In this document: positions 14,609-19,537 of the stretch, in pieces
How positions within the stretch are numbered: the stretch's first letter is position 1
How the letters are laid out: each line of letters begins with the position of its first letter
DNA from: a virus
DNA length: 22,397 nucleotides
Reading direction: 5' to 3' (one strand)
Virus record (IMG/VR): IMGVR_UViG_3300001681_000095
Span: 1 to 22,397 of that record
Made by a program: the position numbers and the translations under genes
Notes under the pieces: generated by a model
What the model was told of the DNA's origin: nothing
What the model saw: only the letters and a program-made list of their open reading frames with translations
Database searches by the model: none

Positions 14609-14938
14609 CTAGTTTTTAAAGGGCCACCGAAGCCCTGTTTCTTTCTCAAATTTTTCTACTGCGTGCATTAGATCGGTGCGAGAGTTAAGTGTACCGGAAG
14701 CGTTAAGGCCATGTTTGATATAGGAATCCATATAGCCCTTTTCCGCATTGAGGGTTTTCATGAAAGCATCGATCTGTGCAGAGTTTCCGCTCAGGCGGAT
14801 GGGGCTGTTCAGGATCCCCCCATAATACAGGTCCAAAAGTGCGCTGCGCACCTGGCCTGCAAACTTACTATATACCCTTTCGGACAGCTGTCCTTTGGTA
14901 TTATTCAGATAAATTACATCTTTTACAATTTCGTTCAT
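14609..14938 (-). CDS. Unknown small tail-region protein (109 aa)
   Basis: A 109-residue soluble, mainly helical protein between the chaperone pair and the tape measure. It has no recognised motif, though Leu-Ser-Gly-Asn-Ser-Ala-Gln-Ile and a C-terminal Trp-Pro stand out, and the layout NSPIRLSGN...AFMKTLNAEKGYM recalls small proteins beside tape measures in marine phages. Its own ribosome site (AGAGGG, 8 bases before ATG) comes right after the intrinsic terminator, so it is the first gene of the low-copy tail sub-operon. A tape-measure chaperone or tail-assembly factor is plausible from position, but unproven. Confidence 0.7.
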   Translation of the reverse strand: MNEIVKDVIYLNNTKGQLSERVYSKFAGQVRSALLDLYYGGILNSPIRLSGNSAQIDAFMKTLNAEKGYMDSYIKHGLNASGTLNSRTDLMHAVEKFEKETGLRWPFKN

Positions 14939-14971: not shown

Positions 14972-14997
14972 AAAAAGCCGGAGCTACTTGCCCCGAC
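14972..14997 (-). terminator. Intrinsic terminator inside the structural operon
   Basis: On the minus strand GTCGGGGC pairs with GCTCCGGC (8 pairs, two G-U) around the 5-base loop AAGTA, followed by TTTTTG. The TAG stop of the frameshifted chaperone extension lies in the loop and stem. It would reduce transcription of the tape measure and hub genes relative to sheath and tube. Confidence 0.75.
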
Positions 14998-15179
14998 TTG
15001 CTCGATCATATTCTTCATTTTGTTTTTTATACTCTTGAACCAAACGGTCCACAAACCATCGTCGGAGCGGTACAGGGAGGTTATATGCTTCGATGAAGGA
15101 CCACCCTCCATAATGTTTCAGCGCAAAGAATTCTTCGTAAACTGCTGCTTGGTACTCAGGAGTCAGGCCAAAAAAACTG
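14984..15179 (-). CDS. Frameshifted C-terminal extension of the tail chaperone (gp51-like)
   Basis: After the T7 run at 15170-15176 the +1 frame (equivalently -2) is open for 61 codons, from Gly at 15169 to TAG at 14984-14986. It starts GLTPEYQAAVYEEFFALKHY and contains GGWSFIEAYNLPVPLRRWFV. This resembles the Tyr-rich, N-L/M-P-x-x-L-R pattern of gp51-type tail assembly factors, by memory. The segment has no Met and no suitable early GTG/TTG with a ribosome site, so it can hardly be translated on its own. A shift at UUU-UUU would fuse it to the 280-residue upstream part, giving 341-342 aa. The layout is analogous to lambda G/GT. A one-base homopolymer error is the main alternative. Confidence 0.6.
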
Positions 15180-16010
15180 TGCCGTCAAGGGCATTACCAC
15201 CTTTCCCATGTGATCACAATGTTCGCATTCGAAATCATACGACACATCCACATCAGGTTTAATTTTTTCGTACACTTTACGAAGGTATTTTACATCTCTA
15301 AGGGGCATCAACGAGATAAACTTGTCAATATCCCCTCGATCAGTCTGATTATTGAGAGAAACTATAACAGTTTTTAACAAATCAGTACTCCGAGTGTCCG
15401 GTAGTTTCAGTTTTTTCTTTTTATCAGTAGCCTCAGAAAGGGATCTTTCATCGCGACTAGTCAGAAGCCGAACTTCTGCTTCGATTGAGGTAGTGGGCAA
15501 CGTCATGACAAAGTTGTTATCATCATTTATTACAACACCCTCAGGCATTTCCCCTGGAGTTACATGAGTGAGATTTTCTAAATCAAATTCTTGCTCATTT
15601 ATCTCTGAGCAGCCCGGGCACTTCACATTGGTCTCATATAGTGACCCGAAGCCCGTGATCCGAGATGCTACAAGGAGAGCATTTTTGTCTCCAATCAACA
15701 GACTATCAACATCAATCTCTTTATCTTGTATTACAGATTGTATGAGCCGATCGATGGCCAGTCCTTTACGCAAAAGAGTTTCAGAGGTAAGAATGTCTTC
15801 CTCCTTAGCAGTCATATGCCTAATTTCAATTGTGTCGACGCCCGCCAGAGGATGGCCCTCTGGATAATATCTTCCACCGGATGGTAGCTCAACAAATTCT
15901 GTTGGAGTTACAAACGAAAAGAGGCTATTATCGCCTGAGTTCGTGATTGGTGGTGCGGGAGCGTCTGGATGCGGCGCCGTTGTGCGCTGCGAATTATTCC
16001 TTCTTCCCAT
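15156..16010 (-). CDS. gp26-like tail assembly chaperone / baseplate protein
   Basis: A 284-residue protein of the T4 gp26 baseplate family, as judged from the conserved core ELPSGGRYYPEGHPL (41-55), IEIRHMTAKEEDIL (61-74), a GDKNALLVASRITGFGSLY stretch (107-125), and a four-cysteine zinc-ribbon-like pair Cys131-x2-Cys134 and Cys262-x2-Cys265. The first 30 residues are Pro/Asn-rich and disordered. In T4 the product is scored as a baseplate hub protein, but its place between the tube and the tape measure is the standard place of tail assembly chaperones. The 0-frame ends at TGA 15156-15158, 12 bases after the T7 run, while the +1 frame continues. The ribosome site AAGGTG precedes the ATG by 6 bases. 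Confidence 0.82.
   Translation of the reverse strand: MGRRNNSQRTTAPHPDAPAPPITNSGDNSLFSFVTPTEFVELPSGGRYYPEGHPLAGVDTIEIRHMTAKEEDILTSETLLRKGLAIDRLIQSVIQDKEIDVDSLLIGDKNALLVASRITGFGSLYETNVKCPGCSEINEQEFDLENLTHVTPGEMPEGVVINDDNNFVMTLPTTSIEAEVRLLTSRDERSLSEATDKKKKLKLPDTRSTDLLKTVIVSLNNQTDRGDIDKFISLMPLRDVKYLRKVYEKIKPDVDVSYDFECEHCDHMGKVVMPLTAQFFWPDS
15170..15176 (-). promoter_or_regulatory. Putative T7 frameshift slippery run
   Basis: Seven consecutive T on the minus strand in CAG TTT TTT TGG. The 0-frame reaches TGA four codons later. Shifting +1 or -2 lets the tRNA-Phe re-pair perfectly with UUU and opens a 61-codon frame. A -1 shift would stop at once (TTG GCC TGA), so +1 or -2 is required. Confidence 0.5.
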
Positions 16011-16032: not shown

Positions 16033-16608
16033 CTAGGGCTCCGTTACGGCTGCGACAGCAGGACCCACTACATACTCTGCCCAATCATACTGGATTGAGA
16101 GAGAAATATTAAGTAGATTATCATTCTCGTATGAAAGGTCTCCGAACTTAGCATCTGTAATAAATGCGTTTTGAAGCGTCCATGAGCCGACGAGGCCGCC
16201 CTGACCACTGAGTTCCTGAATCACGACATTGCCGAGTGCATCGACTGCCATGGCCTTGTTGACGGTACCAGGAGCTTGCGCTGGATTATTGAGCGCATCT
16301 TGCTGGTCCGGAGGCAACAGGTAGCCCGACTTTATGAGAGCATCATAGAGAATCTTGTTGCCGTCAGGATTGATGGCATTGATAATATTCGCTGTGACGG
16401 GGCCCCAAGTAACGGTGCCAGGATAGTGGTAGGTATTCCCTAGAAATTTATGAGGAGTAGAACTGACCTGATAGTTTGGCTTTGTTACATCTTTCGCAAG
16501 ATATGGCTGATATGAATATTCTCCATCAGCACTCACTAGGTTCGGAAAGAAAAGTAAAAAGCGGTGGGCCCTCTTCGGCTCCGATAGTGCGCTTGTCCAA
16601 AATGGCAT
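16033..16608 (-). CDS. Tail tube protein (gp19-like)
   Basis: This is the structural subunit of the inner tail tube, through which DNA passes. The 191-residue product has the N-terminal PKRAHRFLLFFP motif (11-22) of T4 gp19-type tubes, a Pro/Tyr-rich beta strand with GTVTWGPV, and a C-terminal WTLQNAFITDAKFGDLSY and ISLSIQYDWAEY pattern that forms the shared tube beta-barrel. The length (T4 gp19 is 163) leaves about 25 residues for a middle loop (about 100-125, Pro/Gln/Ala-rich). It lies directly after the sheath gene, the normal order, and has its own ribosome site, GAGGAGACC, with the start about 12 bases on. It should be among the most abundant virion proteins. Confidence 0.9.
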   Translation of the reverse strand: MPFWTSALSEPKRAHRFLLFFPNLVSADGEYSYQPYLAKDVTKPNYQVSSTPHKFLGNTYHYPGTVTWGPVTANIINAINPDGNKILYDALIKSGYLLPPDQQDALNNPAQAPGTVNKAMAVDALGNVVIQELSGQGGLVGSWTLQNAFITDAKFGDLSYENDNLLNISLSIQYDWAEYVVGPAVAAVTEP

Positions 16609-16672: not shown

Positions 16673-19537
16673 TTAGTCGGTAAACGATGCTCCCGTACGA
16701 GTAATATTGAAATCAATTGCGATGAATTCAATGGTTCGTGCTGGCTTCAAGAAAATTCGTGCATACATGATATTTCTATCTACCAAATCGGGTGTAGTTG
16801 TTGTATCGTCCAAAACCACCTTATAGTCTGTTAGACCAAAGTTAGTTTTTACATTCGCCAGGAAGGGATTCACCTGTGAGGTGAAACGTAACCATGTCTG
16901 TTGAATGTTGGGATCGAAAAGAAGCTGCGCAGCAATCTGCGAAATGCGCTTCTTCACGAAGATCATCATACGTCGAACGTTAATCCGGTCGAGTGCTGAG
17001 GGCGTAACCTGCAGGGTCTTCTGGCCGAAGATTACGATACCTTCACTCGGGAATTTAGCGATTGGATTGATGTTCGCGCTATAAAGGTTGTCGCGGTCAA
17101 TCCGGCGAAGCTGGTGGGACACATCAATGATGGGAAGGCCAGCAGAGCCTTCAGTTAGGCCGCCGCGGTTGAAGCCGGCCGGCGCAAACCAGACCTGTGT
17201 CTTACGCTGGGAACTTGAGAAGGTCCCGATTGCAGCCACAGAAGGTGGTACCCAGAGGATAGCTCCATTGATTGAGTCTCTTGCTCGGAGCCACGGATAG
17301 AAAGTACAGCCGTATGACGAATTCAAACCCCGGTTGCGTAGATTGGTAATTACCTGCGTTAGGGCGCTAGATATATTGTTGCGAACCAGGGTTCGCCCTT
17401 CTGCGCGGGGTGTGAAACCGCCGGCGACGTCGACAACTGCCAAGGCATCAGCACGGTCTTCGCATGTTTGAATCAAGTGTGTAGTCAGACCGTCATCAGT
17501 GAGGCCCGGAACAGAAGCAAGGTTCATTTCCACCACTTCGGGATCAGCCACCGCGTCAATTGCACGCTTGATGGTTGCTCTGGCGTAGTTGTTGTTTTCG
17601 TTTGTACTATCATCTATGAAACTGTTACGGAACGGGTCCATCTCAACAATATCCAGACCATCAAAGCCGCCATAGAGAGGGACGGTGAAACGGTCATAGC
17701 CAGCGTCGAGGACACCCTTTGTTGATCCGGTTGTTGCAGTATAGGATCTACCGCTTCCAGAAACTCCGCCAGTCATTCGGGCAGTCAGGGACCAGACGGC
17801 CGTGCCAGACAGAGGATAGAGATCATCTAGTGAAAATGCGACAGCGCGCTCGCTTCGAGCAGATGCCGGCGCGAAATCGTTTATAATGCCGCCGCGGGGG
17901 CGCAGGACATCTTCGACGGAGCCATCAAAACGAGTGCTTCCGACTGCCGTTGTTGTACGGAAGCCAAAATATGCATCTGTATCGTTAGATAGTCCGCCCG
18001 CACTCGCGCTTACGCGGAAGGCGGCTTGGGGATAAAGCATTAGAAGGTTTGGATCCAGGCTAGCCGTCTGAAGCATAAGTGTTCTGCCTCTGCCGGACCC
18101 GGACATGCCACCGTCGAAGTGACGGGACGTGTCGGAACCAGTAACCCAGTTGCCTGCGCCGGCGGAAGCGGAAATTAGCTCATCATTATACTTCACCATC
18201 CCCAAGAAACCAAAGGGAAGATAACGAGCGTCTAGGGCTCCGGCGGCGAGGTCACTGTTTACTGCAACACGAATATAATTAGAAACATTTGGCCAATCAC
18301 CGATGGTACGGTAACGGCGTTCTGCAGCAATCCACTGAGTATATTGAGTTCCGATCTTTCGACCAATGTAGTTTAGTGAACCAGGATTCAAATCACAATC
18401 GTTGAACTGCTCCAAAATCTGTACTACATTATCTGAATCAGCCAATCGACGAATAACAACGCTGAAGGATCCGTAGGGATTGCTTGTATTTGTTGATTCT
18501 TTGATGTCCTGGATTGAAATCTTGAGATTTCGATTGGTCCAATCTCCGGATTGCTTAAGGCTTATGCAGCTGAACAGTTGCTGCTGATTGGCGGCGACAT
18601 AGCTTGCGGTTGCAGTTGTCAGGTCCTGGGCAATGATTTGAGGGGTCTCCCCACCTACGAGCTGACTTTTGTGGTCTCCGGTAGAGGTACTGTCCGTAGC
18701 ATTGTAAAGAGGGATTATGGCGGCCAGGTAAGTACCGGTATTAATATTATCTTTTAGGTGTTGATCAAATGTTTCGCCCAACCAGTAGTTTGTCTGCTGT
18801 TTCGGATTTGTAACAGTACCATTTGTAAGCTGCGGGTTTGTGTTGAATACCTTGCGAATATACTTTTCCGAAGTTGTATCAAAGTTAAACGATGCAGTCA
18901 TTCCCATGGATCCGGAGGCGTTAGGAATAACAGCCTTGAACTCATAGTTCGCACCAATTTGTTTGAAACCAGTGTTCATGCCTATGGAAGCGCTGCTCGT
19001 CCCCGAGCCGACGCCGCCGAAGACAGTTCCTGTAAGCAATGCAGTACAACCGGCTGCGGCGTCTGTATAGAAAATAGCAGCGAGGGCTCCGGTGAGGGTG
19101 CCGGTCGAGGCGGGACCCACCGATGCCGAATCAAATATAAAGAGGCCCATAGCACTAGATGTTGCATTTGTGCTCAGTGCCCAGCCGGCTGTCCCGGCGC
19201 CTGCAGCAGCATTGGGGGCTTGTGATCCCAAGAGACGAATATAGGTTAGGGGTGAACTGTTACGGAGATATGCCTGTGCTGCGTATGTTCCATACATCGG
19301 CGAGACCTGATTGCCTTCGCGCCAGACGTCACCACCTACTCCACCGGGCACTGGCGTGCCAAAGATGTTCACAAATTCCGAGAAGGAATTAACTGTGATG
19401 GGGCGAAGGGCTGGGCCCTTTTCGGCGCGGCCAATAATGACGGGGCCAATTCCGGCTGGAGAAGCTGGAAGTTGGGAGTTGTCGATCTCGTTGACAAACA
19501 CTCCGGGTGATACAAATCTGTAATTCTTCACTGACAT
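16673..19537 (-). CDS. Contractile tail sheath protein, oversized (gp18-like)
   Basis: Subunit of the contractile sheath, which shortens to drive the tube into the host. The product starts SPGVFVNEIDNSQLP and GPVIIGRAEKGPA, as other sheaths do. The middle and end carry the standard features: VDVAGG, NSSYGCTFYPWL, WVPPSVAAIGTF, WFAPAGFNRGGL, INPIAKFPSEGIVIFGQKTL and RRMMIFVKKRI. At 954 residues it is nearly 300 longer than T4 gp18 (659). The extra material is in the first two thirds, including an Ala/Gly/Ser/Thr-rich block (about 112-205) with the look of surface-exposed beta domains. AGGAGACC precedes the ATG by about 9 bases. Confidence 0.93.
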   Translation of the reverse strand: MSVKNYRFVSPGVFVNEIDNSQLPASPAGIGPVIIGRAEKGPALRPITVNSFSEFVNIFGTPVPGGVGGDVWREGNQVSPMYGTYAAQAYLRNSSPLTYIRLLGSQAPNAAAGAGTAGWALSTNATSSAMGLFIFDSASVGPASTGTLTGALAAIFYTDAAAGCTALLTGTVFGGVGSGTSSASIGMNTGFKQIGANYEFKAVIPNASGSMGMTASFNFDTTSEKYIRKVFNTNPQLTNGTVTNPKQQTNYWLGETFDQHLKDNINTGTYLAAIIPLYNATDSTSTGDHKSQLVGGETPQIIAQDLTTATASYVAANQQQLFSCISLKQSGDWTNRNLKISIQDIKESTNTSNPYGSFSVVIRRLADSDNVVQILEQFNDCDLNPGSLNYIGRKIGTQYTQWIAAERRYRTIGDWPNVSNYIRVAVNSDLAAGALDARYLPFGFLGMVKYNDELISASAGAGNWVTGSDTSRHFDGGMSGSGRGRTLMLQTASLDPNLLMLYPQAAFRVSASAGGLSNDTDAYFGFRTTTAVGSTRFDGSVEDVLRPRGGIINDFAPASARSERAVAFSLDDLYPLSGTAVWSLTARMTGGVSGSGRSYTATTGSTKGVLDAGYDRFTVPLYGGFDGLDIVEMDPFRNSFIDDSTNENNNYARATIKRAIDAVADPEVVEMNLASVPGLTDDGLTTHLIQTCEDRADALAVVDVAGGFTPRAEGRTLVRNNISSALTQVITNLRNRGLNSSYGCTFYPWLRARDSINGAILWVPPSVAAIGTFSSSQRKTQVWFAPAGFNRGGLTEGSAGLPIIDVSHQLRRIDRDNLYSANINPIAKFPSEGIVIFGQKTLQVTPSALDRINVRRMMIFVKKRISQIAAQLLFDPNIQQTWLRFTSQVNPFLANVKTNFGLTDYKVVLDDTTTTPDLVDRNIMYARIFLKPARTIEFIAIDFNITRTGASFTD

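Follow-up and report, generated by a model that had tools for sequence, protein, structure and literature searches.

In his review, Atkins describes frameshifting of the G/GT type as widespread 'except T4', and the passages on tail genes list shifts of −1, of −2 (phage Mu) and, as 'very likely', of +1 (HSTV-2) (PMC5009743). T4 was in this way once listed as the exception to the frameshifted-chaperone rule, and later work attributed two genes to it. The tail assembly chaperones of T4-like phages were identified by Vladimirov, Gautam and Davidson in 2022 (Virology 566:9; cited in PMC10885494 and PMC12846349): As cited in PMC10885494, some T4-like phages have a short and a long gene in place of a frameshift and, as cited in PMC12846349, T4-like TAC-N genes contain poly-T signals for a −1 shift. 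The locus analyzed here belongs to a marine T4-related myovirus and, as judged from its sequence, very probably encodes a frameshifted tail assembly chaperone pair.

The window, i.e., the whole stretch of DNA that was analyzed, is a virus record of 22.4 kb. Its minus strand carries T4-like genes, among which the tail genes succeed one another in the order sheath, tube, gp26-like gene, +1 segment, 109-aa ORF and, by a weak match, tape measure (Table 1). The chaperone gene lies between the tail tube and tape measure genes, which is the position typical of G/GT; the initial annotation had placed the pair after the tube and before the tape measure, and this order holds with the amendment that the 109-aa ORF intervenes before the latter. 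A similar ORF is located at the same place in CP070664.1 (L379), a bacterial 'chromosome' from a MAG labelled candidate division WOR-3, where the order of the tail genes and the slip site are as in the window. The stretch with these tail genes lies next to N runs and a frame resembling a DNA polymerase and may be a prophage or a mis-binned phage contig. The minus strand of the window further encodes a family A DNA polymerase (PF00476; 5027–6247), a RecA-like protein (13–615) and a gp32-like protein (2113–2886).

Table 1. Features of the tail gene region and of the frameshift junction in the window.
Feature	Positions	Strand	Remarks
Tail sheath protein	16673..19537	(-)	PF17482 E 5.6e-8
Tail tube protein	16033..16608	(-)	PHROG 4542 E 1.5e-21
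gp26-like short form (TAC-N, 'G')	15156..16010	(-)	284 aa, C-terminal end FFWPDS, then stop
+1-frame TGA just upstream of slip	15185..15187	(-)	sequence
Slip site TTT TTT T/GGC	15167..15176	(-)	P-site UUU; A-site UGG in frame 0, GGC in frame +1
Zero-frame stop TGA, end of short form	15156..15158	(-)	stop kept in all relatives
+1-frame extension ('T', gp51/DUF6760-like)	14987..15169	(-)	61 codons, three predicted helices
TAG stop, end of predicted long form	14984..14986	(-)	sequence
109-aa ORF	14609..14938	(-)	weak PHROG 33672 match E 0.007
Probable tail tape measure protein, 706 aa	12475..14595	(-)	PHROG 4211 E 1.4e-4; position and length

The short form falls into PF12322 (E 3.7e-15, above the curated cut-off) and matches the baseplate hub family PHROG 150 (E 8e-18). 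Its AlphaFold2 model (pLDDT 83.5), which like that of the extension was computed separately as an ordinary translation, matches T4-like baseplate hub assembly proteins in a viral structure library with E-values down to 7e-20. Foldseek against solved structures returned nothing significant, the HK97 tail assembly chaperone 2ob9 being matched at E 1.9 with a probability of 0.20, and a sequence search of solved structures gave nothing useful. From homology and from the position of the gene we infer a role in tail assembly. The short form also contains two zinc-ribbon-like CxxC pairs (CPGC and CEHC), which are kept in many relatives and are absent from the immuto-lineage row L207 of the short-form alignment.

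The gp26-like ORF of the minus strand ends with ACG GCA CAG TTT TTT TGG CCT GAC TCC TGA, with a T7 run at positions 15170–15176 and the zero-frame TGA (15158–15156) four codons past TTT TTT. In the +1 frame the junction reads TTT TTT (T) GGC CTG ACT CCT GAG TAC ... AAG TAG, with 61 open codons from GGC at 15169 to the TAG; the T7 run, the stop four codons on and the open next frame that the initial annotation had pointed out are all found in the window sequence. The same applies to its statements that a −1 shift would stop immediately and that the downstream part has no usable start: The −1 frame reads TTG GCC TGA and is closed at the third codon, and the first ATG, GTG or TTG of the extension in its +1 frame is a GTG at codon 40. 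Initiation in the +1 frame upstream of the slip is barred by the TGA at 15187–15185, and a +1-frame stop lies at this upstream distance in 74 of the 150 junctions compared below.

A first search of viral contigs yielded 79 relatives, all of which have the same frame phase (79/79; the contig of one copy, L006, ends just past the slip site). Two further searches that started from other members, one of them in the lineage of Flavobacterium phage immuto, extended the set to 150 distinct junctions including the window; the +1 arrangement is present in every one of them (150/150), and ten additional MAG-binned contigs have the same phase. The slip sites comprise six related 12-mers of one pattern, namely TTTTTTTGGCCT (112 junctions), TTTCTTTGGCCT (27), TTCTTTTGGCCT (4), TTTCTATGGCCT (4), TTTTTTTACCCT (2) and TTTCTTTACCCT (1). 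Counted from the first slip codon, a zero-frame stop is reached after 5, 6 or 8 codons in 150/150 junctions, with variation in both its position and the stop codon used. Among 87 representatives (<85% identity) a zero-frame stop within 8 codons occurs in 100%, compared to 52±5% under a null model in which synonymous +1 codons were redrawn, a difference that does not represent a probability since the representatives are mutually related. Differences within the extension are distributed over the +1-frame codon positions 1, 2 and 3 at 0.284, 0.12 and 0.565, which is a coding signature in that frame. The slip 12-mer is nearly invariant, third positions vary on both sides of it, and no invariant flank was found outside it. 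Because the stop is retained, the +1 frame bears a coding signature and the 12-mer stays invariant amid varying third positions, both the short and the long product appear to be under selection; the sequence conservation corresponds to one gene that would give a short and an extended form via a conserved frameshift. The programmed frameshift that had been claimed for the tail assembly chaperone gains support from this deep conservation, and the alignment of homologues that had been proposed as a check finds the frames identical in all 150 junctions and the T7 run intact in all but 36.

Homopolymer runs are error-prone, and the two frames might in reality be a single continuous one that was disrupted by a sequencing error or in a pseudogene. 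Sequencing error is refuted by the 150 distinct assembled junctions in the same phase, to which complete isolate genomes (immuto, Mel-JY01, SP-15 and RM378) and alleles that keep the phase without a homopolymer run can be added, and the chance of this reading is negligible; relatives with six or nine T and hence one continuous frame, which the initial annotation had named as contrary evidence, did not emerge, as the junctions share their phase. The seven-T run of the window and most relatives could by itself also permit transcriptional slippage, producing six-U mRNAs in which the frames are fused. This is disfavored by the 36 of 150 alleles that keep the frames with a broken T7 run (27 CTT, 4 CTA, 4 TTC and 1 CTT-TAC; TTT CTT TGG is among them) as well as by the −1 relatives, which carry six T plus C, and we regard it as very improbable. 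Slimmer still, if not quite negligible, is the chance that ribosomes translate the extension alone, either re-initiating or using a non-standard start, as would follow from the annotation of S-PM2 gp51 as its own gene right after the gp26 stop. Besides the first start of the window extension lying as late as codon 40, the first starts of the relatives are scattered with none in common, ribosome-site-like matches are rare (15/150), and the T_TTT_TTC site is kept even in some relatives of the cyanophage type that have no ATG (FFRIALFHN). The second kind of contrary evidence that had been named, an independent downstream start with a ribosome site, is accordingly not a common property of the 150 junctions.

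A programmed −2 frameshift, as known for the tail genes of phage Mu (PMC5009743), would lead into the same frame with one extra Phe. The initial annotation had left the direction at +1 or −2 on the grounds that a UUU-UUU re-pairing site fits either, and by codon–anticodon rules both shifts indeed re-pair perfectly in the window: T7 alleles, that of the window included, permit UUU → UUU at −2, and CTT alleles could permit a weak −2 re-pairing. Other alleles are kept despite being mismatched at −2: In TTC TTT TGG a −2 shift would set tRNA-Phe on UCU, in TTT CTA TGG it would result in poor pairing for a Leu tRNA, and it is likewise mismatched in phages SagM-GXN1 (TTC TTT CGT) and BRock (CTG TTT CGC). 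At +1, re-pairing takes the form UUU → UUU in the window and UUU → UUC or CUU → UUU in variants, with CTT alleles permitting either of the latter two, and the UUU before CGN or CAC in SagM-GXN1, BRock and SP-15 also fits. Since alleles such as TTC TTT TGG and TTT CTA TGG are retained and a +1 step is possible in nearly all cases, we favor, on codon–anticodon reasoning, a +1 slippage of the UUU codon and consider −2 distinctly unlikely; of the earlier alternative, a direction other than −1 is upheld and the −2 option is dropped. Overall, −2 slippage, transcriptional slippage, an independent start and sequencing error were rejected on the evidence from alleles, start codons and phase.

No stimulatory RNA structure (fold z +0.77) and no Rfam match were detected at the junction, and a conserved Shine-Dalgarno-like stimulator was not found in the junctions. 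Stimulators of +1 shifts, such as Shine-Dalgarno-like elements, RNA structures or a stop codon in the A site, are common and not obligatory. In the window the A-site codon is UGG and the stop follows four codons past the shift. In the prfB context, UUU reportedly ranks with the codons most prone to +1 slippage (PMC10885494).

The extension is predicted to form three helices (model pLDDT 87). Its profile from the +1 lineage matches the −1 segment of the cyanophages with an hhalign probability of 91% and a score of 35.8 (best of 40 column-shuffled controls: 15.3), and the cyanophage segment in turn matches the C-terminus of T4 gp51 (probability 96%, score 47.1). The cyanophage HMM locates this match to residues 209–245 of T4 gp51 (E 6.5e-7; best shuffled decoy 7e-4), gp26 not being listed. 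A direct profile comparison of the extension with T4 gp51 was not significant, and the gp51-type C-terminal segment of the long form is recognized transitively, through the cyanophage segment. PF12322 is matched by both T4 gp26 (E 8.8e-64) and T4 gp51 (E 3.9e-52), the latter having about 48 more C-terminal residues; by these comparisons the two T4 proteins are paralogues, one short and one long. Because the extension is homologous to the cyanophage 'gp51', which matches the T4 gp51 tail, and because gp26 and gp51 are paralogous, they look like a G/GT-type chaperone pair on the sequence level. The earlier proposal that gp26 and gp51 constitute one G/GT-type system agrees with the profile comparisons and needs correction in one respect: gp51 is a full gp26 paralogue with the segment, not the segment alone. 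Moreover, 35 of 55 extensions resemble DUF6760 (PF20546; E up to 0.1, best E 1.1e-4), where the best listed score of 16.6 bits lies below the curated cut-off of 27 bits, and three resemble PHROG 634 'baseplate hub assembly catalyst' (best E 0.035). Foldseek with the 61-aa extension found nothing significant, a search for PF20546 in eight virus records returned nothing, with control genomes matching below the cut-off only, and searches with SP-15 gp26 against genome contigs and with gp26 against plasmids revealed no link to bacterial contractile systems.

The records of S-PM2, P-SSM2, HTVC008M, KVP40, phiM12, PhiW-14 and others each contain one PF12322 gene; no frameshift-type record contains more than one, and T4 has two. 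Immuto and Mel-JY01 fall below the PF12322 profile threshold, and tblastn identifies one place in each. Cyanophage-type junctions combine NNT TTT TTC NNN TRR with an open −1 frame in 62/62 distinct cases; those of KVP40, HTVC008M, phiM12 and PhiW-14 resemble them, and the jumbo phages Cassandra, Atu_ph07 and RaK2 have a similar −1 junction. The +1 phase is present in immuto, Mel-JY01, LR756508, LIS04, SagM-GXN1, SP-15, BRock and RM378, and a search of viral contigs for relatives of RM378 retrieved only RM378 itself. From these sequences, the long form looks to result from a +1 shift here and from a −1 shift (T_TTT_TTC) in cyanophages, in KVP40 and in several of the jumbo phages, with two genes taking the place of a shift in T4. 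In S-PM2, gp51 (L389:1691-1864) is annotated separately, yet T_TTT_TTC and an open −1 frame join it to gp26. Campylobacter phage NCTC12673 (L390:683-1995) has two adjacent PF12322-like stretches. In the second, a TAA in frame separates two annotated ORFs, the last of which looks gp51-like by eye at its end; the two stretches are possibly a short/long pair that arose by duplication and whose long copy is broken or recoded.

A 53-row tree of the short form separates cyanophages, KVP40 and T4 from all other rows (100/100), and in it the −1 of the jumbo phages lies apart from that of the cyanophages. Label changes on this tree amount to 2 for +1, 3 for −1 and 3 for all three states together; its details are unsure owing to the long branches of BRock, RM378, RaK2 and T4 gp26. 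Taken jointly, the proposals that the decoding mode switched several times on the same UUU-UUY core, with a large and for the most part uncultured clade using +1, the cyanophage type and, separately, jumbo phages using −1, and T4 having a gene duplication, and that the extension is a DUF6760 domain, have in our estimation not quite an even chance of both being correct. If the extension is a DUF6760 domain, non-viral contractile systems may use such a chaperone pair as well.

For the +1 shift, the following sequence of events can be envisaged: Most ribosomes would stay in frame 0 and produce the short protein of 284 aa. A fraction would slip by +1 with peptidyl-tRNA-Phe on UUU and UGG in the A site, whereupon the tRNA would re-pair with the next UUU and GGC would enter the A site. 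The resulting long form would have 341 aa, made up of 280 aa common to the short form and the 61-aa helical extension. By analogy to lambda G/GT, the tape measure protein would be coated by short and long forms, the latter recruiting tube subunits via the extension.

With a large +1-shifting sister clade, T4 would become one member of a series of solutions that can replace one another, and there would be a natural experiment on the evolution of frameshift direction. At the same time, many annotations of T4-like phages probably leave out the long form or enter gp51 as a gene of its own that may not yield a separate product. The open-licence papers searched yielded neither the +1 clade nor a switching of direction, and because the literature search was confined to these, the novelty of both is provisional.

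Compared to the T4-like gp26/gp51 system, the locus shares the PF12322 family, the short and long forms and, in the long form, the gp51-type tail segment. It differs in that T4 has two genes and other T4-like phages reportedly use a poly-T −1 shift, whereas here a single gene would shift +1 at UUU UGG. With lambda gpG/gpGT it has in common the tube/tape-measure position, a short form with a C-terminal extension and a zero-frame stop soon after the slip; lambda, however, shifts −1, no sequence relation was detected, and the tail here is contractile. Phage Mu (−2) and the haloarchaeal myovirus HSTV-2 (+1, 'very likely') resemble the locus in having a shift other than −1 at the tail chaperone position (PMC5009743). 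In prfB (CUU UGA C) the P-site codon slips +1 as well, and the CTT_T alleles of the immuto lineage look the same at the P site; the A site, in contrast, is occupied by a stop codon in prfB and by the sense codon UGG here, where no Shine-Dalgarno stimulator was found.
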